Assembly: GCF_023277115.1 (NCBI RefSeq)
Contig: NZ_JALQCS010000001.1
Coordinates: 1,916,001-1,980,000, forward strand
DNA from: Acidithiobacillus acidisediminis
GTDB taxonomy: Bacteria > Pseudomonadota > Gammaproteobacteria > Acidithiobacillales > Acidithiobacillaceae
Direction of reading: 5' to 3'
DNA: 64,000 nucleotides
A program made the position numbers and the translations under genes. Positions 39,037 through 57,569 of the stretch are shown in pieces. Position 1 is the stretch's first letter. Each line of letters starts with the position of its first letter. A model generated the notes under the pieces. That model did not search any database. It was not told the DNA's origin and saw only the letters and a list, made by a program, of their open reading frames with translations.

Positions 39037-40302
39037 TAAGACGGTGATGAAAAAGTCGGTGGTATACTGGGCAAAATGGTGCAGCGGGGGTTGGAAAGAT
39101 GCGTGGAGCGAAGGTAGAGACCCAAGGGTTGTTCAGCTACGTTTCCCCGGAGCAACGGGTGCCCCAGGACCATCCGCTGAGAGCGATCCGAGCTATCGTG
39201 GATCGCTCCCTGGCGGAGATGGATAGCCACTTCAGCACGATGTACTCGACCTACGGTCGCCCCTCCATTCCCCCGGAGTTTCTCCTGCGGGCGCTACTGC
39301 TGCAGGTGTTTTACAGCATCCGCTCGGAACGGCAGCTGATGGAGCAACTCAACTACAACCTGCTGTTCCGTTGGTTTGTCGGTTTGGGAATGGACGACGA
39401 CGTCTGGGTGCCCACGGTCTTTACTAAGAATCGCGATCGGTTGCTGGATCATGGGACGGTACGGGAATTCTTCCGATCCGTACTGGAACAGGCCCGCGGC
39501 CAGAATCTGCTTTCCGAAGAGCATTTCTCCGTCGATGGCACCCTGCTGGAAGCTTGGGCTTCGCAGAAGTCCTTCCGGCCGAAAGATCCCGAGGACCGTG
39601 AGGGCGATGGTTCCGATTTCCGCGGCCAGTCGCGCAGTAACGAGACTCACGCCTCGGTGACCGACCCCGATGCCCGGCTCTACAAAAAGGCGCCCGGCGA
39701 AGCTTCCCGCTTGGCCTATCTTGGGCATGTGCTCATGGATAATCGGCATGGATTGATTGCCGGAGAGCAGGTCACCACCGCCGACGGTACGGCGGAAGTC
39801 GACGCCGCCGTCCAACTCGTGGACGATCTGGGCGGGAACCAGCGCATCACCCTCGGTGCCGACAAGGGCTATGACCGCCACGGCTTCGTCCAGAATCTCC
39901 GGGATCGGAATGTGACCCCTCATGTAGCCCGCAAGCGAAAAGGCTCGGCCATCGATGCCCGGACTACTCGCCACCGGGGCTATGCCATGAGCATCCACGT
40001 CCGGCGGCGGATAGAATCCATCTTCGGCTGGATGAAGACTGTGGGAGGGATGCGGAAAACCCGATTCCGTGGTTTGGAACGGGTCGGTCTGCACTTTTCC
40101 TTGGTCACCGTCGCCTACAACCTGGTCCGCATGGTGCGGTTGGGGGTGGCCTGATGGGAGTACTGCGTCTGGAATCCCAAAATGGCCCCAAAAAGACTGC
40201 AACAGCGGGCAAAACAGGCCTGATAGGGCTGCCTATTCGGCAATTTTTGACCAAATCCGATAGCGCCAGGGCGTTTCTACGGATTTTTTCCGCATCCTCT
40301 TA
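39037..40302 (+). mobile_element. IS5-family insertion sequence
   Basis: The element encloses the transposase at 39099-40154. Its ends match imperfectly: GACGGTGATGAAAAAGTC (left, from 39040) against the complement of the right end, GAGGATGCGGAAAAAATC (to 40299), about 19 of 25 bases including the flanks. TTAA is present at both junctions (39036-39039 and 40300-40303), consistent with a short target duplication. It inserted exactly at the start of the leftward gene at 38143. Confidence 0.85.
39099..40154 (+). CDS. IS5-family transposase (DDE)
   Basis: This 351-residue DDE transposase has an N-terminal DUF772 domain (HPLRAIRAIVDRSLAEMDSHF, then LLRALLLQVFYSIRSERQL). The catalytic core includes FSVDGTLLEAWAS (first D), LGADKGYDRHGFV (second D), then IESIFGWMKTVGGMRKTRFRG (E). 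The reading frame is intact with no frameshift, so the element may still move. It mediates cut-and-paste transposition of its own ends. Confidence 0.93.
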   Translation: MRGAKVETQGLFSYVSPEQRVPQDHPLRAIRAIVDRSLAEMDSHFSTMYSTYGRPSIPPEFLLRALLLQVFYSIRSERQLMEQLNYNLLFRWFVGLGMDDDVWVPTVFTKNRDRLLDHGTVREFFRSVLEQARGQNLLSEEHFSVDGTLLEAWASQKSFRPKDPEDREGDGSDFRGQSRSNETHASVTDPDARLYKKAPGEASRLAYLGHVLMDNRHGLIAGEQVTTADGTAEVDAAVQLVDDLGGNQRITLGADKGYDRHGFVQNLRDRNVTPHVARKRKGSAIDARTTRHRGYAMSIHVRRRIESIFGWMKTVGGMRKTRFRGLERVGLHFSLVTVAYNLVRMVRLGVA

Positions 40303-40495: not shown

Positions 40496-40777
40496 TCAAG
40501 GGCGCGGCTCCAGCCGCACTACGGCCCGGCTTCCGGTAGCTTCTGCGATCCGCGCAATGGTTCGCATGGATGGCGGGGATTTGCCACTTTCCAGGCGGGC
40601 AATAGCCGATTGGGTGGTGCCCATGCGTTGCGCCAACTCCGCTTGCGACAATCCAGCGCGGGTCCGGGCTTCGATCAACTCGCGGGCAAGGTTGAACTCA
40701 CCTTCCAGCGCGTCGTACTCCGTTTTGAACGCGGGGTCTTTCATCCATTGCTCTTTCAGTTCCGATAAGCGGCTCAT
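40496..40777 (-). CDS. HigA-like antitoxin (XRE HTH)
   Basis: This 93-residue XRE-type protein has RAGLSQAELAQRMGTTQSAIARLESG and KSPPSMRTIARIAEATG, a complete helix-turn-helix. It overlaps the toxin gene by 4 nt (ATGA) and is the second gene of a toxin-first pair of the HigBA/Gp49 type. The pair is itself coupled to the integrase gene, so loss of the island would expose the cell to the more stable toxin. Confidence 0.85.
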   Translation of the reverse strand: MSRLSELKEQWMKDPAFKTEYDALEGEFNLARELIEARTRAGLSQAELAQRMGTTQSAIARLESGKSPPSMRTIARIAEATGSRAVVRLEPRP

Positions 40778-41100
40778 TGCAAAACCTCCTTGGCGCGTTG
40801 CCGTGCCGTCTCTATGGCCCGCTTGGGCGTCTTCTGCGCTTTCTTGACGAAAGCATGCAGGATGACCAGCCGTCTCCCTGTTGCAGTGACATATATTGCT
40901 CTGGCAATCCCATCCGGCGCCTTGGCGCGTATTTCCCAGAGCTTGTCTTCCAGGTGCTTGATGTGTGGCTCGTGGACCTGCTCCAGCCCCACCTGCTCAA
41001 TGAGCTCCACTATCCGCAACAGTCGCGCGCGCAACGCGGACGGCAGGGCTTTGAGTTCATCATCAACACACTTGTCGAGGGTCTCTGCGCTCCACTTCAT
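40774..41100 (-). CDS. RelE/Gp49-type HigB-like toxin
   Basis: This 108-residue protein of the phage-derived Gp49-like (PF05973) toxin family contains the core LEDKLWEIRAKAPDGIARAIYVTATGRRLVILHAFVKKAQKTP, with the basic and aromatic residues typical of ribosome-dependent mRNA interferases. It overlaps the integrase gene by 4 nt upstream and the antitoxin by 4 nt downstream. The three genes are therefore translated as one unit. Confidence 0.85.
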   Translation of the reverse strand: MKWSAETLDKCVDDELKALPSALRARLLRIVELIEQVGLEQVHEPHIKHLEDKLWEIRAKAPDGIARAIYVTATGRRLVILHAFVKKAQKTPKRAIETARQRAKEVLQ

Positions 41101-42323
41101 ACTATAGCGTTTTTGCGATGACTGGGCAATTTCTTCATCGGCGTGATCTCAACAGATTGCTTGACCCCAGCCGCGACCAGGATGGCGTCCGTACCTTTCT
41201 GCCAGGCATCGGCAACGGGGTCTTGCGCCAACCTTGCGTAGACGGCAGTGGTTTGCTGCGAGTGGTGTCCCAGCCCCTTGCCGATGACGGCCAGAGATAC
41301 CCCGGCATCGATCTGAAAGGATGCGAGCGAACGGCGCAAGTCATGGATGCGTAGGTCATCAATGCCTGCTCGCTGCAATAGACGTTGCCAGCCTTTTTTG
41401 GGTTCTACGAGATGGCCTGTCCTGCCCGGTCCGGGGAATACCCACCCCTGCGCCCCGGATGTCTCTGCGCGGGACTGCAGCACCTCTATGGCGGCGTCGG
41501 TGAGAGGTACGGCGATGCTATCGCCAGCCTTTGCCTTGGAGCTTGGAATGGTCCAGGTTTTGCGCTCTAGATTGATCTCCTGCCAATGCATCGCCAGCAC
41601 GTTGGCCCGACGTGCCCCGGTCAGCAGCGACAGCATGACATAGTCGCGCACGTCCGGACTTTCCTCGGCGGCCAGTGCCTCAAAGAATCTTGGCATTTCA
41701 TCGGCGTGCAGGCGACGATCCCGGCTTTCCTCTCGGTTCATCTTAAGGCCAGCAGCCGGATTGGCCAGTCGCGGAATATCCAGCGTGTTGATTCCGAAAT
41801 TGAACACGGCACGGACCAAGGCCAAGACACGGTTGCCCTGATAGATCCCGGCTCCCGTGCTGACCTTCCGGTGCAGCGCGCGAATATGCTGACGTTCGAT
41901 TTCGGACAGTTTCTTCTTGGCGATCTCTTGCAGGTGTAGACGAAAGTTGCGCTCGTCGTTGCCCAGGCTTTTTTTGCCCTTGGCGCGGCAATCCTTCACC
42001 CATTCGCTGAACAGATCGGAGAACGTCATCTCTGCCTTCTTGATGCGCCTCTGCTCAGCCGGGTTAGTCCCTGCGGCAATCTGGTTGATGATCCCAGCAG
42101 CGGTTGTGCGAGCTGTCTCAATGGTCACGGTAGCGGCATCGCCTATGCGAATTTCCTCCACCCTGCCGTCTACCTTGCGAATGCAATAGAAGGTCTTGGT
42201 CCCGGCTGGGGAAACATATACGGCCAAGCCCTTCTGTTTTTCGTCATAGACGCGGCGCCGCTTGCCGGGGATTGGTTCCAGCGCCGAAAGACTGGCCTTG
42301 GTGAAGTTCACTTTTTCAGTCAT
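41097..42323 (-). CDS. int: Tyrosine integrase of island A
   Basis: This 408-residue tyrosine recombinase has an N-terminal Arm-DNA-binding domain (DUF4102 type: DEKQKGLAVYVSPAGTKTFY), a core-binding domain, and the catalytic residues R (LLTGARRANVLAM), H-x-x-R (RIHDLRRSLAS), H (GLGHHSQQTT) and Y (AVYARL). It catalyses recombination between the tRNA-Lys att sites. It lies about 260 bp from the att repeat at 42582, with arm sites in between. The downstream coupling to a toxin-antitoxin pair is unusual. Confidence 0.95.
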   Translation of the reverse strand: MTEKVNFTKASLSALEPIPGKRRRVYDEKQKGLAVYVSPAGTKTFYCIRKVDGRVEEIRIGDAATVTIETARTTAAGIINQIAAGTNPAEQRRIKKAEMTFSDLFSEWVKDCRAKGKKSLGNDERNFRLHLQEIAKKKLSEIERQHIRALHRKVSTGAGIYQGNRVLALVRAVFNFGINTLDIPRLANPAAGLKMNREESRDRRLHADEMPRFFEALAAEESPDVRDYVMLSLLTGARRANVLAMHWQEINLERKTWTIPSSKAKAGDSIAVPLTDAAIEVLQSRAETSGAQGWVFPGPGRTGHLVEPKKGWQRLLQRAGIDDLRIHDLRRSLASFQIDAGVSLAVIGKGLGHHSQQTTAVYARLAQDPVADAWQKGTDAILVAAGVKQSVEITPMKKLPSHRKNAIV

Positions 42324-42581: not shown

Positions 42582-42628
42582 GACTCTTAATCAGCGGGTC
42601 GTGGGTTCGATCCCCTCACAACCCACCA
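42582..42628 (+). repeat. att copy 2: boundary of islands A and B
   Basis: This is identical to tRNA bases 1304-1350 (47 of 47) but lacks the 5' half of a tRNA, so it is a recombination scar rather than a gene. It serves as attR of island A and attL of island B. Confidence 0.92.
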
Positions 42629-42636
42629 AACAAAAC

Positions 42637-42670
42637 AGGCACTTAGGAAGTTCTCCTAGGTGCCTTTTTT
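42637..42670 (+). terminator. Terminator at the left end of island B
   Basis: AGGCACTTAGGA (42637-42648) pairs perfectly with TCCTAGGTGCCT apart from G-T pairs, followed by TTTTTT. This is the best preserved of the three hairpins that follow the tRNA-end repeats. Confidence 0.85.
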
Positions 42671-44085: not shown

Positions 44086-45045
44086 ATGGCCCATTTGGTA
44101 GAAACAATGGCATTTATAAGAGAGACCCCATGGCACGGCTTGGGGAATCGGCTGTTGGAAAAGCAGCCTTTGGACGTCTGGCTGCAGGCGGCGGGCATGG
44201 ACTGGGAGATCAAGACCACTGATGTCCTGTTTCGTGTCGGTACCGGCAGTAATTTCAACATCCATCCCAACCCGGATGCCAAGGTGCTGTATCGGTCGGA
44301 TACCTTGGCCCCCCTGTCCGTAGTTTCTCCCCGTTATAAGGTGGTTCAACCCAGGGAGATTCTGGAGTTTTACCGTGATCTGGTGGAGGTCGGTGGCTTT
44401 GCCCTGGAGACTGCCGGTGTCTTGAAGGGTGGCAAGAAACTCTGGGCGCTGGCACGTACTGGAGAGGAGTTTCTGCTGCGTGGTGCTGATCGGGTCAAAG
44501 GCTATCTGCTGCTGGCCACCAGCTGTGACGGCACCCTGGCCACCACGGCGCAGTTCACTTCGGTGCGGGTGGTCTGCAACAACACCCTGCAGCTTTCATT
44601 GGAGCAAGGCAAAGATGGCGCCATCAAGGTACCCCATTCCACGACGTTTGATCCCGATGCCGTCAAAGCGGCATTGGGTGTGGGTGTTACGGCCTGGAAC
44701 CGTTTTGCCGAGTCCGCTCAGGTGCTGGCCGAACGGAAGGTCAACCGCCTGGATGTGACGAAGTTCGTCATCAGCGTGCTGGGAGACCGGGATGCGCCCT
44801 TAACGGCACAGCCCAACGAAAAGGCGCTGAAGGGCGTCATTGAACTCTTTGCCGGTCAAGGCAAGGGCAGTCAGTTGGCATCCAGTAATGGCACCGCATG
44901 GGGACTGGTCAATGCCGTCACCGAATATGTAGACCACCACCGCCGGGCCAAGAGTCAGGATACCCGTTTGGACTCTGCCTGGTTTGGTCAGGGTGCGGGC
45001 ATCAAGGCCAAAGCCTGGACGGAGGCGCTGAAACTGGTGGCTTGA
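44086..45045 (+). CDS. DUF932 phage/plasmid-like protein
   Basis: This 319-residue protein of the DUF932 (TIGR03299) family begins MAHLVETMAFIRETPWHGLGNRL and contains VSPRYKVVQPREILEFYRDLVE and LLLATSCDGTLATTAQFTSVRVVCNNTL. These proteins are common on phages and plasmids, often near recombination genes, but have no proven activity. AAGGAGG provides a strong ribosome site. It is followed by an intrinsic terminator and then the YqaJ gene. Confidence 0.85.
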   Translation: MAHLVETMAFIRETPWHGLGNRLLEKQPLDVWLQAAGMDWEIKTTDVLFRVGTGSNFNIHPNPDAKVLYRSDTLAPLSVVSPRYKVVQPREILEFYRDLVEVGGFALETAGVLKGGKKLWALARTGEEFLLRGADRVKGYLLLATSCDGTLATTAQFTSVRVVCNNTLQLSLEQGKDGAIKVPHSTTFDPDAVKAALGVGVTAWNRFAESAQVLAERKVNRLDVTKFVISVLGDRDAPLTAQPNEKALKGVIELFAGQGKGSQLASSNGTAWGLVNAVTEYVDHHRRAKSQDTRLDSAWFGQGAGIKAKAWTEALKLVA

Positions 45046-45131: not shown

Positions 45132-46076
45132 ATGAGTGCATTGAAATTAGTTTCTACCCGCAGCCTGTCCCGAGAGGAGTGGCTGCAATGGCGGCACAAG
45201 GGCATTGGCTCCAGTGATGCCGCCGCCGCCATCGGCAAGTCTCCCTACACCGCACCTTTGGCACTATGGTTGGAGAAGACAAGCCGTAAGTCCGCAGAGG
45301 ACCTCTCCCAGAAAGATGCCGTCCGTTGGGGCACCTTACTGGAACCGCTCATTGCCCAAGCCTATGCCGAACAGACCGGCAAGAAGGTGCGGCGGGTGAA
45401 TGCCATTCTGCAACATCCCGAGCATCCCTATCTGTTGGCCAATCTGGACCGGATCATTGAGGGGGGTGGGATCCTCGAAATCAAAACGGCGGGACTGCGT
45501 AGTCAGGGCTTCTGGGAAGAAGGGGTACCCGAGCATTACCGCATCCAGGTACTGCATCAGCTCCTCGTGACCGGCAAAAGCTGGGCCGAAGTGGCGGTGC
45601 TCATTGGGGGGCAGGAGTTTCGGACCTACCGGATAGAACCGGACGGTGGGGAGTTGTCCGAATTGCTGCACGCTGAGCAGGCATTCTGGCATTACGTCAG
45701 CTCTGACACCCCCCCCGAAGCAGATGGCACGGAATCCAGTGGCAAGGCCCTGCAATGGCTCTATCCCCGCTCCACGGCCACTTTGGTGGATTACACCGAG
45801 CATGGGGCCATGAATGCCCTCTTCCGGGAGCTTATCCAAGCCCGTGCCAAGAGCAAGGCCGCCGAAGTCCACGAAGCCATTCTGGAGCAGCGCATGAAGG
45901 AAAGTCTCGGGGATGCCGAAGGCGCTCTGTTCCTGCAAGGCAAGGTGCTGTGGAAAACCAGCAAGGACAGCCGAACTCTGGACACTCAGAGCCTTATTCA
46001 AGAACACCCGGATTGGGTAGCGCCGTATTGGATCACCAAACCCGGCAGTCGCCGATTCACCGTACAAGCAGAGTAA
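45132..46076 (+). CDS. YqaJ-family recombination exonuclease
   Basis: This 314-residue protein has the YqaJ/lambda-exonuclease fold: the N-terminal LSREEWLQWRHKGIGSSDAAAAIGKSPY, then RWGTLLEPLIAQAYAEQTG, the catalytic D in LLANLDRII and E-x-K in GGILEIKTAG. It would degrade one strand of double-stranded ends to feed single-strand annealing. GGAGG precedes ATG 45132. It is followed 12 nt later by the directionality-factor-like gene. No RecT/Bet annealing partner is seen. Confidence 0.9.
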   Translation: MSALKLVSTRSLSREEWLQWRHKGIGSSDAAAAIGKSPYTAPLALWLEKTSRKSAEDLSQKDAVRWGTLLEPLIAQAYAEQTGKKVRRVNAILQHPEHPYLLANLDRIIEGGGILEIKTAGLRSQGFWEEGVPEHYRIQVLHQLLVTGKSWAEVAVLIGGQEFRTYRIEPDGGELSELLHAEQAFWHYVSSDTPPEADGTESSGKALQWLYPRSTATLVDYTEHGAMNALFRELIQARAKSKAAEVHEAILEQRMKESLGDAEGALFLQGKVLWKTSKDSRTLDTQSLIQEHPDWVAPYWITKPGSRRFTVQAE

Positions 46077-46088
46077 GGAGACATTATC

Positions 46089-46886
46089 ATGATCAAAGGA
46101 CTCGCCATCACCCCGCCCGTATTGGGGCGGATTGCCATCGGCAAGGTTGTAGAGAAGAACGGCAAGCGCCTGCCCGAAAAGGATGACGCCTTCACCATCA
46201 CCACCCAGGTGCAGCAGCAGGGAGAATGGATGCTGCATCCGCTGCATCTGCAATTACAACAGCAACAAGGCACTCAAAAGCTGCGGTCTATTCCCGTGAC
46301 GTTGCTCTTCAATGACCCCGATCTGAACCTCCGGGCGGATTATAGCGCCTTTGACAAAACCACGGGCAGGCCGCTTTGTGTGGGCAACGGAGAAAGCGCC
46401 CGGCGGATGACGCAGGACGGCATGCAGTCGGTAACTTGTCCGGGGCCACAACTCTGTGGTTTTGGGCAGGAAGCGCGGTGCAAGCCTTATGGGCGGCTCA
46501 ACGTGCAGATTGAAGGACAGGATGATCCCTTGGCGTCATTCATCTTTCGTACCACGGGCTTCAACAGTATCCGCACCCTGGCGGCACGGCTCAGCTACTG
46601 GAACGCCGTGACGCAGGGCGCCGCAAAGTATCTGCCGCTGTCCCTAAAGCTGCGGGCCAAGAGTACGACACAAAGTCATCGGGCACCCATCTACTACGTG
46701 GACCTGACCCTACGGGAGGGAGTAGACACCGCCGAGGTGCTGGGGCAAGCTACAATCCATGGGAAGGAACATCAAGAGGCGGATCATGCATTGGAAGCCG
46801 CAGCCAGACAAGGCCTCAGTAACGGGATCTTGGAAGAGACCGACGAGGAACGGGAGGCTGTGCTGGAGGAGTTTTTTTCAGAGTAA
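46089..46886 (+). CDS. Gp3-like recombination directionality factor family protein
   Basis: This 265-residue protein contains the pattern VTCPGPQLCGFGQEARCKPYG and RLNVQIEGQ, with FIFRTTGFNSIRTLAARLSYW, typical of the Gp3-like directionality-factor family (often annotated as hydrolase or metal-binding protein). Four cysteines suggest a metal site. Such factors usually partner serine integrases, whereas this island has a tyrosine integrase. The last 35 residues (EETDEEREAVLEEFFSE) recur in a diverged copy at 47568-47741, suggesting 3'-end exchange. Confidence 0.65.
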   Translation: MIKGLAITPPVLGRIAIGKVVEKNGKRLPEKDDAFTITTQVQQQGEWMLHPLHLQLQQQQGTQKLRSIPVTLLFNDPDLNLRADYSAFDKTTGRPLCVGNGESARRMTQDGMQSVTCPGPQLCGFGQEARCKPYGRLNVQIEGQDDPLASFIFRTTGFNSIRTLAARLSYWNAVTQGAAKYLPLSLKLRAKSTTQSHRAPIYYVDLTLREGVDTAEVLGQATIHGKEHQEADHALEAAARQGLSNGILEETDEEREAVLEEFFSE

Positions 46887-46958
46887 GTTCCCGCTTGCGT
46901 ATAGTGCTTTGACAAGCGCTGCCATCGCCCTTAAAAAGCTTCTGATTGTACCTACCGG

Positions 46959-46992
46959 AAAGCGCTATGAATACAATCATAGCGCTTTTTTT
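46959..46992 (+). terminator. Intrinsic terminator upstream of cargo gene
   Basis: A perfect 12-bp stem, AAAGCGCTATGA / TCATAGCGCTTT, with a 6-nt loop is followed by a T-run. It isolates the downstream cargo gene from the nuclease operon. Confidence 0.9.
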
Positions 46993-47035
46993 ATGCTCAA
47001 TAAAAAGCGACCATAGTCACCCAAAGGAAATCAAA

Positions 47036-47470
47036 ATGAACGAAGACATTATCAACATCGGAGTCAAGCTCATAAAACATATCGCTTCGAGGCAGCAGGT
47101 CGGGGTAGAGAACGAGCAAATTAGTCAGCGACTAAGTGATGATCTGTTCAACTTTAAAGAGTTACTATTAAGCCAAACGACTGGAGTGGCAGAAATTTTT
47201 TCAAATATAATTCTAAAAGCTTCGGAAGAGATTGACGCAAAACGACTACGCAACGCAGAATCGTTTTTAGCCTTATACATTGACCCAAACTGGAATGAAG
47301 AGTCTAAGGTTAGGGTCACGGAAGCGCAAATAAAAAGTGACACTGTAAATTCCGTTGCTGAAAAAGCATCTATAGCGACTGTGGCCACTGTAGCTATTGG
47401 GGCACTTGGATGGATAATAAAAACGATTATAGACAACAAAACAAAGCCAAAGAAGTTTTGGGAGAAATAA
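47036..47470 (+). CDS. Small membrane-associated cargo protein, hypothetical
   Basis: This 144-residue protein starts at ATG 47036 after AAAGGAAA. The first 110 residues are helical and charged, and residues ~113-135 form one transmembrane helix (IATVATVAIGALGWIIKTII) followed by a basic tail. The gene is AT-rich and sits between the directionality-factor gene and a second copy of that gene's 3' end, so it looks like inserted cargo. A soluble domain joined to one membrane helix is common in small defence or superinfection-exclusion proteins, but there is no direct evidence. Confidence 0.65.
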   Translation: MNEDIINIGVKLIKHIASRQQVGVENEQISQRLSDDLFNFKELLLSQTTGVAEIFSNIILKASEEIDAKRLRNAESFLALYIDPNWNEESKVRVTEAQIKSDTVNSVAEKASIATVATVAIGALGWIIKTIIDNKTKPKKFWEK

Positions 47471-47567
47471 TTTTTTACCATAACGAGTATAAATAGCAAA
47501 GCTTCCAATCAAGGAAACTACAAATGCACAGAACAAGAAACCATCTTTTCTCTTGGCAAGCAAACAA

Positions 47568-47741
47568 GAGACAGATAAAGAGACCAACCATGCATGGGAA
47601 GCCGCAGCCAGACTGGGACTCAGCAATGGGCTCCTGGAAGAAACCGACGAGGAACGGGAGGCCGTGCTGGAGGAGTTTTTCAGTGGTGAGGACGCTTCTG
47701 GTCAATCTGTCGGCCGCAAATCGGAACAAGCTGCGGCGTAG
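47568..47741 (+). pseudogene. Second 3' end of the directionality-factor gene
   Basis: The frame ending at 47741 reads NHAWEAAARLGLSNGLLEE, then TDEEREAVLEEFFSGEDASG, closely matching the C-terminus of the gene at 46089 (DHALEAAARQGLSNGILEE...). It has an extra 15-residue tail absent there. The DNA is similar but clearly diverged. It lacks the rest of the gene and is followed by a terminator (47766-47803). It is most likely the original or a foreign 3' end left when cargo was inserted. Confidence 0.7.
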
Positions 47742-47765
47742 GAAGCCTTCCAGTGAGAGCCAGAG

Positions 47766-47803
47766 GAAGCAGGCTGCCCATGGAGTGGCTTGCTTCTTTT
47801 TTT
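47766..47803 (+). terminator. Intrinsic terminator after the directionality-factor remnant
   Basis: GAAGCA (47766-47771) pairs with TGCTTC (47791-47796), with further inner pairing, and is followed by seven T. Confidence 0.65.
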
Positions 47804-48073
47804 AGCCAAGGTGTGTCGCGTTAGACTGAAAGCGGACATGTGGATGGGTTACCTTGGCCCTTTGTGCGTACCCAGGCTGGGGGGGGGGGTCATTGTTTTG
47901 TCTTATGTTGGCCGTTCATGACAAACCTTTGAAAAACAACCGGTTGGAGTTATCATCGAGGGCGCACCATGGGACAGAATGATCTTCTGTGCCAGGTGTT
48001 GAACATGCATGGATGCCGATAAGTCGTCTGTGATATCATTCAACCATCTATAAAACCTAATCAAAGGCTGGAA
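47804..48073. other. Leader region of gtr cassette with G11 tract
   Basis: No gene is seen. It contains an uninterrupted run of eleven G at 47879-47889, about 185 bp upstream of the gtrB start. Promoter elements for the cassette should lie here but are not clear to me. Confidence 0.5.
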
Positions 48074-52403: not shown

Positions 52404-55358
52404 CTAACCGCTGCCCCCCCCTGTCACCTCAAAAACGGCAGTATCTAATTGCTCCTCGGGCAATTCTCCGGAAAGGATTGCACCTTTGACGGCGTACACC
52501 CGCATTGGTCTCATATCTGGGACTCGTCGTGTATCGGCCTTAGGCAGGTCCATGAAGCCCTTAGCTACCAAGTGTTCCGCCAGCTGTTGCTTCGTCACCC
52601 CCTGGCAAAACTCGGCCTCAAAAGTCGGCACAGGAATCCAAAACTCAAACTGCGGGTTGGCTTCGCTGCTATCTATCCACTTGCCATAACCCCAGCACGG
52701 GTTTGGGACCCTGGTGCCTTCCCCCAGACCAATTTGTCCAGAGCGGTTTATCCACTCAAAGCGGGCAGAGCCGTAGAGATGCAATTTTTGCACCAATGCC
52801 TCATAAGCGCGGATGATATCAGTGGATTCCGAACCCCCTCGTTCATTCAGCCAGGCCTGGAAACACCACTGTGCTGCCGCAATGGCTTCACCCTCTTGAA
52901 AAGGAAGAATATGCCATAAAATTGCCAGTTCCCCAGCGGCAGCTACAGCAGCGAAGCGTTGAGCAACGCGATGCACTTGGTTGTCTCCACCTCGGACGTG
53001 CCAGTCCGCCTGCAGGCGGTGGATCTGCGCATCGAAACGCGCAACGGTCCAATCCTTATCCTCGGTTGTAGCCAGTAACCGAGTCAAGAAGGCCCTGATG
53101 GGTGTGCCATAGAACCGACGGCTGGCCTCATCAAGATGATCCACCAACTCCCGGGCGCTTTGAAAGCCGTTGAGGCTTTGAATGATGCCCATCCCCGCCC
53201 CAGCGTCGGCCTTGACGTCAAGCAAACGCACCTCATGTCCTGCCATAGAACGCTGGTTGGTCTGGTGAAGCAACTGATTCAGTGAGATTTCCCCAGAAGA
53301 CAGAAAAACCAGCCGGAATTTCGTCACCGGTCTTGCGGAAGCATCCGCCCGCATTCGCCCCTTTCCTTGCCCATTACCAAGCAAATATGTAGCATCCCCT
53401 GCCGAAGCTGCTGAAAGGGAACCCAGTTCGTCCAGCGTCAAGAGTGCATCGTTGCGGGCCGCAGCCAAGGTTTCCAGTGCATTATCCGTCGTCCGCCAAC
53501 TATTGATATATTGCTGCGGATCCCCCCACACCGATGAGGCCACCTTAAGCAACCTGGTCTTACCTGAGCTGCTGGGGCCACGGAAATGGACACCAATATT
53601 TTCCATTCCCGTCAGGCGTAGCAGAGGGGGCAGAAAAGCAGCAGACAACGCCAGCACCAAGAGCGGATTGCCCTGGCACAATGCCGCCACATGGGTCTGC
53701 CACTCATCCAAAGTCCCCGCCTGCCCGTAGGCCTGCATAAATTCCATTAGGCGCTCTGCCATGTGGTACCCGTCAGTTCCTTGGTCACCTGCAATCCCAA
53801 AAACAGCATCGGGCAGAGCAAAGACGGCGCATTCCTCATCCAGCCAGCCGCTGGATTCCACCAGAGTCAGACGACGGTTTACGGGAAAGTCTTGGATAAA
53901 ATATGCCAGAAGCTCCCGGCCTTTAGTCGTCGTATTGCATCGAACACCGTGATCCATCAGCGCCCGCCTGAAATTTTCAGAGGTCAAATCGGTAGCTAAG
54001 AGGCGGATGTTATGGCAACTCCCATCGGGATCCCAGACCTTCAGCAGGTATGACCACTGTCCGGATGACAGATCTCGAACCAAGGCATCCACAATGATGG
54101 GCGTTGCCAGCCAAGTGACCACCGGAATGTCCTTCTTGCCAACACTATGATGGGTCACCGCCTTCTCATCCACTTGGAAAGGACCAAAGCGCAAAGAGGG
54201 AAATTCGACCTCGTCGTCTCTTGCGTCACGAATCTCCTCGATCCAGCCCAGTTCTCGCACCTTATCGACGGCTGCCGGACACAACTCCTCAAGAGGAATC
54301 TCCGTCTCGTCACCATAACGCCGGGCGAGCCAAGGCTTACCCTTGGTTACAAACCAGGACCCGGGGGTGTTTTCGTCCGTGAAATAGAGCACCAAGATGG
54401 CGCCATTCCCCCGCAACCTCGTATCCTGCAAAGTCCGTCCTGTGCGGACCGCATTGGGATCAGTAGGCACCAGACAGGTGTAACGGCGGCGTTGCCCATC
54501 CACCTCGGCAACTCGGCTTTGCAACTGATGGCCATGTTCCACCGCCCAGGTTTCCCTGATCTCCCTTCTTTGCCGATTTACCGCGCCTGGCAAGTCGGAT
54601 GCAATATCCGGCAGGTTCACGCTGTCTGCGGGTTTAGCCACGAAACCCAGACGCTCCTGGTGGGTGATGTCACAATTGATTCCGCTATCAATCATCGGTT
54701 CCGCCGTATAGTGCAGCTGGTTTGATGATTTGATCGGCGCCATATCAATACCAAGTACCACCATGGGTATGCCACCCTTGTTCAAGTCCACACTGTAGAA
54801 TCCAGTCTGAAAGCAGAATTGTTCCAGGTGGGCGGCCAACATGGCCCCTCGGACGGGGCGGGTCAGCCAGAAGAAGAGGTGTACCCGGATACCGGGTTTT
54901 AAGTAACTGCCGCCCGGATTCATGATGCCCGCTGAATTTGAAAACATGTACACGTAGCTGACCTGCTGAAATTCGGGAGGCAGCATTGAGACCACATATT
55001 CCACCGCTTGCAGGCTGCAGGGCGCAATACCCTCAGGAGCGGGTATGCCGTCGATGTCCAGCATTACCCAGGGCGTGCCCTCCGGGGCCTCGGGAAAGGC
55101 TTCGCTGGTACGCCTGGTCACTTTTTCCGTTTGCGGCGTGGGCAACCCCCGAATTATTGCACAGCGCCGATTCCGATAGATGTCCTGTAACAGGGTATGA
55201 AACTCCCTGATACCCTCTACCGGCCGCTGCTCCCAAACAAACTCGGCGCAGTTCGGGTAGGGGTCGGTTTTCACCACGTTGTTTTCGGTTAGCTGAAAGT
55301 CCTTGGAAAGTGGAATGAGTTCGTCAGTGGGTCGCAAAACGGTGATGTATGTTGTCAT
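52404..55358 (-). CDS. Primase-helicase (DUF927 type) of island B
   Basis: This 984-residue protein has an N-terminal primase-polymerase-like domain (WVMLDIDG with the acidic pair, then GIRVHLFFWLTRPV) and a C-terminal DUF927/helicase part: Walker A GPSSSGKTRLL, LLTLDELGSLS (Walker B) and FRLVFLSSGE. It would start replication at the iteron region just past its 3' end. ATG 55358 is chosen because AGAGGAG lies 9 nt upstream and it overlaps the AlpA stop (ATGA). The longer frame lacks support. This fits satellite- and plasmid-type replication. Confidence 0.85.
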   Translation of the reverse strand: MTTYITVLRPTDELIPLSKDFQLTENNVVKTDPYPNCAEFVWEQRPVEGIREFHTLLQDIYRNRRCAIIRGLPTPQTEKVTRRTSEAFPEAPEGTPWVMLDIDGIPAPEGIAPCSLQAVEYVVSMLPPEFQQVSYVYMFSNSAGIMNPGGSYLKPGIRVHLFFWLTRPVRGAMLAAHLEQFCFQTGFYSVDLNKGGIPMVVLGIDMAPIKSSNQLHYTAEPMIDSGINCDITHQERLGFVAKPADSVNLPDIASDLPGAVNRQRREIRETWAVEHGHQLQSRVAEVDGQRRRYTCLVPTDPNAVRTGRTLQDTRLRGNGAILVLYFTDENTPGSWFVTKGKPWLARRYGDETEIPLEELCPAAVDKVRELGWIEEIRDARDDEVEFPSLRFGPFQVDEKAVTHHSVGKKDIPVVTWLATPIIVDALVRDLSSGQWSYLLKVWDPDGSCHNIRLLATDLTSENFRRALMDHGVRCNTTTKGRELLAYFIQDFPVNRRLTLVESSGWLDEECAVFALPDAVFGIAGDQGTDGYHMAERLMEFMQAYGQAGTLDEWQTHVAALCQGNPLLVLALSAAFLPPLLRLTGMENIGVHFRGPSSSGKTRLLKVASSVWGDPQQYINSWRTTDNALETLAAARNDALLTLDELGSLSAASAGDATYLLGNGQGKGRMRADASARPVTKFRLVFLSSGEISLNQLLHQTNQRSMAGHEVRLLDVKADAGAGMGIIQSLNGFQSARELVDHLDEASRRFYGTPIRAFLTRLLATTEDKDWTVARFDAQIHRLQADWHVRGGDNQVHRVAQRFAAVAAAGELAILWHILPFQEGEAIAAAQWCFQAWLNERGGSESTDIIRAYEALVQKLHLYGSARFEWINRSGQIGLGEGTRVPNPCWGYGKWIDSSEANPQFEFWIPVPTFEAEFCQGVTKQQLAEHLVAKGFMDLPKADTRRVPDMRPMRVYAVKGAILSGELPEEQLDTAVFEVTGGGSG

Positions 55359-55570
55359 TGCGTAACTCCTCTGCGGTCTGAAGTGGATAGGTGTTGGCAC
55401 TGGGCTATGAATTGCTCCAAGTCGTGCTGGCGGTATCTGACCGCTCGGCCGATGCGAACGAAGGGGATGCGGCCGGTAAGGACGCGGTCTTTGTTGAGCC
55501 ACGACTCGGAGAGCCGCAGGTAGGCTGCGGCATCGCGGGTTGTTAAGAGATTGCTGATACTCTGTTGCAT
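55355..55570 (-). CDS. AlpA-like excisionase/regulator
   Basis: This 71-residue HTH_17 protein has LLTTRDAAAYLRLSESWLNKDR, then IPFVRIGRAVRYRQHDLEQFI. It overlaps the primase-helicase gene by 4 nt. AlpA-like proteins act as excisionases or activators for satellite and plasmid elements. It likely links excision by the island B integrase to replication. Confidence 0.82.
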   Translation of the reverse strand: MQQSISNLLTTRDAAAYLRLSESWLNKDRVLTGRIPFVRIGRAVRYRQHDLEQFIAQCQHLSTSDRRGVTQ

Positions 55571-55744: not shown

Positions 55745-56125
55745 ATGGAAAAAAAGGCTGGAAGGAAGCCCTTGAAGCAAGCGGACTTGGTTGCATATGA
55801 GAAGGCAAGGAAACTCCTAAAAGGGGAGATGCTCCGTCTCGGATTCACAACTACAGACTTGGCGCGCAGCCTTCAGCTGGGTGGAGTAGAGATTGATGTC
55901 AACGGTCTCGGGAGGAAAATCCATAAGGGTGGCTTTTCTTTGGCATTTTTCCTCCAGTGCATGGAGGCCATGGGTATTACCCAGCTTGATCTCTACAATG
56001 CCCGCCCCCCAGAATCCCGCTTCTCCCCGGAGCTAGGTATTCAGCGTGGCGAAAAGATGAAGCTCATCGATGATGAAGACCCCGCCTATCAACGGAAGGG
56101 AGGGGAATCTGATCCAGAGACCTGA
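55745..56125 (+). CDS. DUF6471-type protein
   Basis: This 126-residue protein contains ARKLLKGEMLRLGFTTTDLARSL, then GLGRKIHKGGFSLAFFLQCMEAMG, the DUF6471 signature and helix-turn-helix-like. GGGAGGTGATATG is an excellent ribosome site for ATG 55745. It is divergent from the AlpA operon and converges with the integrase gene, overlapping it by 37 nt. It is probably the repressor that controls the AlpA-replication operon. Confidence 0.8.
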   Translation: MEKKAGRKPLKQADLVAYEKARKLLKGEMLRLGFTTTDLARSLQLGGVEIDVNGLGRKIHKGGFSLAFFLQCMEAMGITQLDLYNARPPESRFSPELGIQRGEKMKLIDDEDPAYQRKGGESDPET

Positions 56126-57312
56126 GCAAGAATAGCTCCGGCAATCCGGTCCATAGGCTCCCGTAGCCGCTCCACGCCGCTAACGATATAGCCCGCTGTG
56201 ACATCTCCCCGGTCGGTGCGGTGGTTCACCAGCCGCTTCAGGGCGTAAGCGCTAATGTCCAGGCTGTCGGCAACGGTGATGAAGGTGCGCCGCAGGTCGT
56301 GAACGGTGACGCTGACCCCTGTTTTTTTCGCCACCGCCGCAAGGGCCTTCCGAGGTTCCTGCACGTAGCCCTTCGCCCCACTGCTGGAGAATACAAAAGG
56401 GCTTCCCGCTTGACCAGCCTCAGCACGGCGCTGGATCAAAAGGTCCACCAAGAACTCCGGCAAGGGCAGCTCCAGCGGGTCGTGATTCTTGGTATTGGTG
56501 ATGGTCACCATGCGGTTGGCCAAGTCCACCTGCTCCCAGGTCAGGCTGGCCGCCTCTTCCCGCCGCAGGCCGGTAAATAAAAGGAACAGCAAATAATCCC
56601 GCAGGGTGGCGTTGCCCAGTTCCTTGACCGCCGCCATCCAACGGCCCAAGTCCCCCGGCCTCAGGCAACCCTGCCGCCGGGGAATCTTTTTCCATGCGCG
56701 GGTGTGGGAAAGCGTCTGCACCGGGTTTTCTCGAAGCAAGGGGCGCTCCGCGGTGCCGTACTGATGCATAGCGAAATTCATGATGGCCCGCAAGGCCCGC
56801 ATCACCACGTTGGCCGTGGCGGCACCCCTCTCTTCCGCAAGACTGCTGAACCGCTCACTGACCTTTTCCCGTGTGATGCTGGCCAGGGGACGGTCCGCCC
56901 AGTCGGCCAGATAGAGATCCACTGCCCGCTGATATTCTTTGATGGTCTTAGGGGTCAGACCCCGCACTTGAACGTATTGTAGAAACGCCTCCCTGAGCGT
57001 GATCCCTTTGACACGTTCCTGCCGCTTTTTTTCCGTCGGCAGTTCACCACCGGCCATCTCCGCCAACAATTGCTGTGCCCTGTTGCGGGCATTCTCAGGC
57101 GTCCATGGAGCGCCATAAGCACCGATGGTCACCCGCTTGGGTTTGCCGTTGACCCGGCGTTCGGCAACGAAGATTTTGTTGTGCTCCGTCACCTTGAGTC
57201 CAAACCCACGGAGCTCGTTATCCCGGTAAAACCTCGGCGGCTGGCCGGGTGCTTGCAAGGGGATGGCGTCTACTGCCCGCTTGGAAATCTTGATTCTGTC
57301 TACCATGGTCAC
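56089..57312 (-). CDS. int: Tyrosine integrase of island B
   Basis: This 407-residue tyrosine recombinase has a DUF4102 arm-binding N-terminus (RFYRDNELRGFGLKVTEHNK) and the catalytic residues R (LFTGLRREEAASL), H-x-x-R (VTVHDLRRTFI), H (RLVNHRTDRGD) and Y (AGYIVSG). It is only distantly related to the island A integrase, yet uses the same tRNA-Lys site with different arm sequences. It could start at the first or third codon. Its 3' end overlaps the convergent DUF6471 gene. Confidence 0.95.
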   Translation of the reverse strand: MTMVDRIKISKRAVDAIPLQAPGQPPRFYRDNELRGFGLKVTEHNKIFVAERRVNGKPKRVTIGAYGAPWTPENARNRAQQLLAEMAGGELPTEKKRQERVKGITLREAFLQYVQVRGLTPKTIKEYQRAVDLYLADWADRPLASITREKVSERFSSLAEERGAATANVVMRALRAIMNFAMHQYGTAERPLLRENPVQTLSHTRAWKKIPRRQGCLRPGDLGRWMAAVKELGNATLRDYLLFLLFTGLRREEAASLTWEQVDLANRMVTITNTKNHDPLELPLPEFLVDLLIQRRAEAGQAGSPFVFSSSGAKGYVQEPRKALAAVAKKTGVSVTVHDLRRTFITVADSLDISAYALKRLVNHRTDRGDVTAGYIVSGVERLREPMDRIAGAILAQVSGSDSPPFR

Positions 57313-57480: not shown

Positions 57481-57526
57481 ACTCTTAATCAGCGGGTCGT
57501 GGGTTCGATCCCCTCACAACCCACCA
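57481..57526 (+). repeat. att copy 3: boundary of island B and region C
   Basis: The sequence ACTCTTAATCAGCGGG through ACCCACCA is identical to bases 1305-1350 of the tRNA (46 of 46). It lacks the 5' part of a tRNA. Confidence 0.92.
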
Positions 57527-57534
57527 AATAAAAC

Positions 57535-57569
57535 AGGCGCTTAGAGAGATTTTCTAGGTGCCTTAGTTT
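57535..57569 (+). terminator. Terminator-like hairpin at the left end of region C
   Basis: AGGCGCTTAGA pairs with TCTAGGTGCCT with one G-T pair, followed by TAGTTTTT. It corresponds to the hairpins at 1359 and 42637. Confidence 0.65.

Follow-up and report, generated by a model that had tools for sequence, protein, structure and literature searches.

A doubled Gp3-like 3′ end in a tandem tRNA-Lys island array of Acidithiobacillus acidisediminis: a possible scar of recombination between two islands

Why should the 3′ end of one gene occur twice in a genomic island, with a foreign gene in between? The locus lies in a window of 64,000 nucleotides (the whole stretch analysed here; contig NZ_JALQCS010000001.1, positions 1,916,001 to 1,980,000) of Acidithiobacillus acidisediminis. 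It was originally predicted to be a swap site, at which cargo enters by recombination within the 3′ end of a directionality-factor gene while the host gene is restored. Comparison of the window with itself aligns copy 1 of the repeated end (46771-46876, + strand) with 47575-47680 at 85.8% identity over 106 bp and an E value of 2e-28, which places the repeat far beyond chance. Copy 1 closes the gene at 46089-46886, the protein of which ends in EETDEEREAVLEEFFSE before the stop codon. Copy 2, a displaced end with a long tail and its own stop (47575-47741, + strand), continues in frame to EEFFSGEDASGQSVGRKSEQAAA and the stop codon at 47741, and is open through the entire tail, with no stop or frameshift. 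It is followed by terminator 2, a strong hairpin with a T-run (47759-47806, + strand; −21.0 kcal/mol). The recurrence of the same C-terminus, diverged and longer-tailed, ahead of a terminator was thus correctly described, and the repeat distance given as 800 bp amounts to exactly 804 bp in register. A run of about ten G residues is seen at 47880-47890, past terminator 2.

Between the copies lie a hairpin, a gene of 144 codons and about 100 AT-rich bases. The hairpin (terminator 1; 46959-46995, + strand) resembles an intrinsic terminator, with 12 perfect pairs, a run of seven T and −16.6 kcal/mol. The cargo gene (47036-47470, + strand) is preceded by AAAGGAAATCAAAATG and is AT-rich (39.8% GC; the GC content of the Gp3-like gene upstream is 57.8%). 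According to hydropathy analysis the 144-residue product has one predicted membrane helix near its C-terminus, its sole hydrophobic stretch being residues 113-132 with a peak hydropathy of 1.8. A terminator and a single AT-rich gene for a one-helix protein are therefore present as predicted. A single-sequence fold predicts the protein to be all-helical, with low confidence (pLDDT 61.6). No relatives of the gene were found in Pfam, PHROGs, NCBIfam, PADLOC, PDB sequences, IMG/VR, phages or plasmids, nor, its own genome aside, in 56 relatives and 368 class and 397 phylum genomes; a part in phage exclusion or toxicity, for which the protein had been proposed as a candidate, would be a guess. On reading the remaining bases, a possible second foreign gene start can be recognised (CAAGGAAACTACAAATG; 47524-47572, + strand, with the ATG at 47524), apparently cut at the right junction. 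The segment can be regarded as foreign AT-rich DNA of about 0.7 kb that holds a terminator, a single complete orphan gene and perhaps the beginning of another. It encodes no recombinase, and neither its own genome nor any of 29 relatives has a further copy of it.

The gene that carries copy 1 is the third and last of a conserved block on the + strand. The first gene encodes a DUF932 protein (44086-45045; Pfam PF06067, 1.2e-69; TIGR03299, 9.7e-112) and the second a member of the YqaJ/lambda-exonuclease family (45132-46076; PF09588, 1.7e-42; TIGR03033, 5.7e-40). The third, Gp3-like gene (46089-46886) matches PF18897 at 1.3e-44 and 152.8 bits against a gathering threshold of 23.6; ‘recombination directionality factor-like’ is only the Pfam name of this family and the function is putative. 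Its product shares 88% amino acid identity with the homologue in a second species of the genus (G002). Plasmids from Aeromonas, Pseudomonas and Acinetobacter and islands within the bacterial family carry proteobacterial blocks with the same DUF932-YqaJ-Gp3-like order, but only in the window is the last gene shortened and its 3′ end doubled. A scan of viral contigs for the Gp3-like gene gave no matches, and in the literature on the gene block a single paper was found to mention both names.

The gene at 46089-46886 had been taken to be intact. Comparison with the related loci reverses this tempting reading. In all 39 related loci with a readable C-terminus (including G001 and G026, where the gene is decayed or frameshifted) residues follow the end of the conserved domain, whereas the window gene, although its body is conserved, stops at once. 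Among the other homologues, those that are undecayed and readable at the C-terminus have the tail that it lacks. G002 has one 3′ end only, with a longer tail (GAECTPEQFVGRARPQTAA before the stop codon), and its terminator and flank align with those of copy 2: 47577-47839 corresponds to the single 3′ end of G002 and its flank, the identity of copy 2 with tail, terminator and flank being 74.8% over 266 bp, and the tail itself is 65% identical over 60 amino acids. G001, of the same genus, has a single, decayed 3′ end with a flank similar to that of copy 2, and terminator 2 occupies the same place in both G002 and G001, as the ancestral terminator of the gene. Because tail, terminator and flank match the single 3′ ends of G002 and G001, copy 2 represents the ancestral end. 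To judge from these alignments, it is the gene with copy 1 that has been altered, and the original state survives in the displaced fragment. The host gene was not restored, since its tail was lost. Similarity between the islands reaches its limit in the flank shared with G002 (AAGGYGTGTCGYGTTTAGACTGAAAGCGG; 47807-47839, + strand), of which the G001 version is more diverged. No further copy of GTGTCGYGTTTAGACTGAAAGCGG as a repeated boundary element was found in the 11 genomes scanned, and this flank is therefore read as a sign of common descent.

Both edges of the foreign segment are junctions. The left one lies at approximately 46880, where the similarity to copy 2 and to the relatives drops to chance level (matches in 10-base windows fall from 10 and 7 to 3-4), and the 3′ flank that is common to G001, G002 and copy 2 is absent there. 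This is unlikely to be slow divergence: in G023, where two copies of the gene are 87.6% identical, similarity persists for about 120 bp beyond the stop codon, so that the different flank of copy 1 is to be regarded as a junction. The right one lies at approximately 47573, the Gp3-like similarity starting between about 47556 and 47575, and thus falls just inside the possible second gene start CAAGGAAACTACAAATG.

The divergence of the two ends carries information on their origin. Over the last 96 nt (32 codons) the three pairwise identities among copy 1, copy 2 and G002 are 86.5, 86.5 and 87.5%, making the sequences equidistant, and each of them shows five or six changes of its own. Third codon positions account for 8 of 13, 9 of 13 and 9 of 12 differences in the three comparisons. 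Equidistance together with this third-position bias indicates that the two ends evolved separately in working coding genes, and on these sequence grounds they derive from two island lineages.

The setting offers a way for two lineages to meet. The window contains a tandem array of two islands at a tRNA-Lys gene, with an integrase at the right end of each, and the doubled 3′ end sits near the left end of island 2. The array begins with the tRNA-Lys gene and its att repeat (1275-1388, att at 1304-1388; + strand). A second att repeat (42582-42666, + strand), 94% identical to the end of the tRNA-Lys gene, separates islands 1 and 2, and a third (57481-57564, + strand) marks the right end of island 2. 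The tyrosine integrase of island 1 is encoded at 41097-42323 (− strand; PF00589, 4.6e-24) and that of island 2, the island with the doubled 3′ end, at 56089-57312 (− strand; tyrosine-recombinase family models, 3.4e-16). A relative, G023, carries two DUF932-YqaJ-Gp3-like blocks that point the same way, lie 38.5 kb from each other and are 88% identical over 3,030 bp (L025 and L026; G023:C1:2271593-2274615 and 2310055-2313080). They belong to tandem islands, and between them lie an integrase and a 36-bp att-like repeat. The block of G026, too, has an integrase and an att repeat directly to its left.

Several other genes of the array were noted in passing. An IS5-family transposase lies at 39099-40154 and shares 91% identity with ISAtc5 from plasmids of Acidithiobacillus caldus. 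Two overlapping minus-strand genes beside the integrase (40496-41100) read as toxin-antitoxin-like, with a RelE/HigB-like and an HTH protein. The 1032-residue protein encoded at 52404-55502 has a weak match, far below the cut-off, to the cassette chromosome replicative helicase Cch1 (2.2e-09), in view of which the island may replicate after excision.

The explanation we favour is that the doubled 3′ end is a one-off recombination scar, which joined two related tRNA-targeting islands and trapped a foreign gene between them; we give it about an even chance. In this model one island lineage would have contributed the DNA to the left of about 46880, a DUF932-YqaJ-Gp3-like block whose last gene has been shortened, and a second lineage that to the right of about 47573, namely a 3′ end with its terminator followed by cargo in the form of sugar-transfer genes. 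Two block-bearing islands would have accreted in tandem at one tRNA-Lys gene, and an illegitimate deletion would then have run from foreign DNA downstream of the gene of the first island into the 3′ end of the second. Such a deletion would have taken the remainder of the first island with its integrase and att site as well as most of the second block, and would have left of the second Gp3-like gene a 62-codon remnant without function, consisting of the last 40 or so codons and the tail. We infer both the deletion itself and the loss of the tail of copy 1, in the same or an earlier event. The two blocks of G023, in tandem and of similar divergence, provide the parental arrangement proposed for the window, and a single accident would be expected to leave no double end in the 39 other loci, as is the case. 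The junction at about 46880, where the flank of copy 1 departs, requires the fusion model to include a second junction, at some cost in simplicity compared with a single deletion.

That islands accrete and undergo deletion is well documented (PMC5704250). As in the CIME/ICE/IME elements described there, the islands of the window are stacked at one tRNA gene, att sites are repeated and remnants adjoin elements. The remnant considered here differs from those in being a fragment of a conserved gene inside an island, not bounded by att sites, with junctions away from att. If the fusion is correctly reconstructed, it documents how stacked islands that share one tRNA gene recombine and take up orphan genes.

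The same product could have been assembled from incoming DNA. In this alternative, a partial Gp3-like 3′ end and a foreign gene from another island were imported by a homology-facilitated or single-crossover event, with a homologous joint on one side and an illegitimate one on the other. The presence of two alleles, a foreign AT-rich segment and a non-homologous right junction fits such an import, and for the two altered junctions it is roughly as good an explanation as tandem deletion. The imported DNA that it requires has left no trace, however, and the repeat offers only about 106 bp of homology with identical runs of 20 bp or less, unless the crossover took place further upstream in the block. 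We consider import unlikely.

The swap site of the original prediction takes the form of an 804-bp non-autonomous cassette, which inserts site-specifically into the 3′ end of Gp3-like genes, supplies a substitute end and displaces the native one. Islands insert in tRNA genes and in some protein genes with a substitute 3′ end, and the window shares features with these integration systems, whether they target tRNA, tmRNA or protein genes: diverged 3′ ends surround foreign DNA and the distal copy is the native one. The displaced end still has its native tail along with terminator and flank, the substitute has diverged, the corresponding site in relatives is empty (a single 3′ end without cargo) and the segment has a junction at either edge. 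Against this, the segment differs from 3′-end-targeting islands in having no integrase, and neither its genome nor the 29 relatives held a second copy. The two ends match without interruption over at most 20 bp, about what chance gives (20.3 bp expected for 15 mismatches in 106 bp), and the substitute end leaves the gene without its tail. The arrangement is also known from a single instance. The absence of a second 3′ end from other copies had been named as speaking against a swap site, and it is what we find at all 39 related loci; isolated 3′-end copies were likewise not found in any of the genomes searched. The other observation so named, the same cargo in all relatives, was not made, the cargo gene being present in no relative. 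Matches that at first resembled second 3′ ends proved to be the tail of each locus itself: they started at base 1 with 100% identity, the downstream stretch compared having begun 60 bases past the match and so within the tail, and were set aside.

Different small genes had been expected at the same site in related islands. Cargo does differ between islands (by sequence reading, G002 has mercury genes, G022 a GTPase-like gene and G026 a DNA methylase), but its place is downstream of the terminator and not between doubled ends. What survives of the original idea is recombination inside the 3′ end, in keeping with foreign DNA between diverged ends and an empty site in relatives; recurrent swapping, with 0 of 39 loci, is not supported. 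We regard the site-specific cassette as quite unlikely, while rare recurrent use of the site is conceivable given that copies of the Gp3-like gene are few in the genus and only six others were found in the bacterial family. A more specific version, in which an integrase-less one-gene cassette of 804 bp is dedicated to Gp3-like 3′ ends, is moved by a recombinase acting in trans and carries an orphan membrane protein perhaps directed against phages or rival islands, appears highly doubtful. It would constitute a very small mobile unit inside islands; the evidence presented here gives it no support.

Finally, part of the 3′ end could have been duplicated locally, with a foreign gene inserted and one copy decaying afterwards, and a direct repeat around an insertion is formally what such an event would produce. 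This was rejected as very improbable indeed: had the duplication followed the split from G002, the copies would be closer to each other than to G002, whereas their distance equals that to the gene of another species, the differences are mostly at third positions and copy 2 has stayed open through its whole tail.

Two points concern the Gp3-like proteins themselves. The Gp3 protein of phiC31 partners a serine integrase; the integrases in the window are of the tyrosine type. The usual neighbour of the Gp3-like gene is a lambda-type exonuclease, within tyrosine-integrase elements, and the protein encoded at 46089-46886 contains a cysteine-rich stretch (CPGPQLCGFGQEARCKPYGRL). It may act in recombination as something other than a directionality factor. 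In two other loci, G252:C1:3174439-3175392 and G574:C22:92057-93118, the Gp3-like match is split in two with an offset near query residue 62-74, which suggests an internal insertion or an extra domain in these genes.
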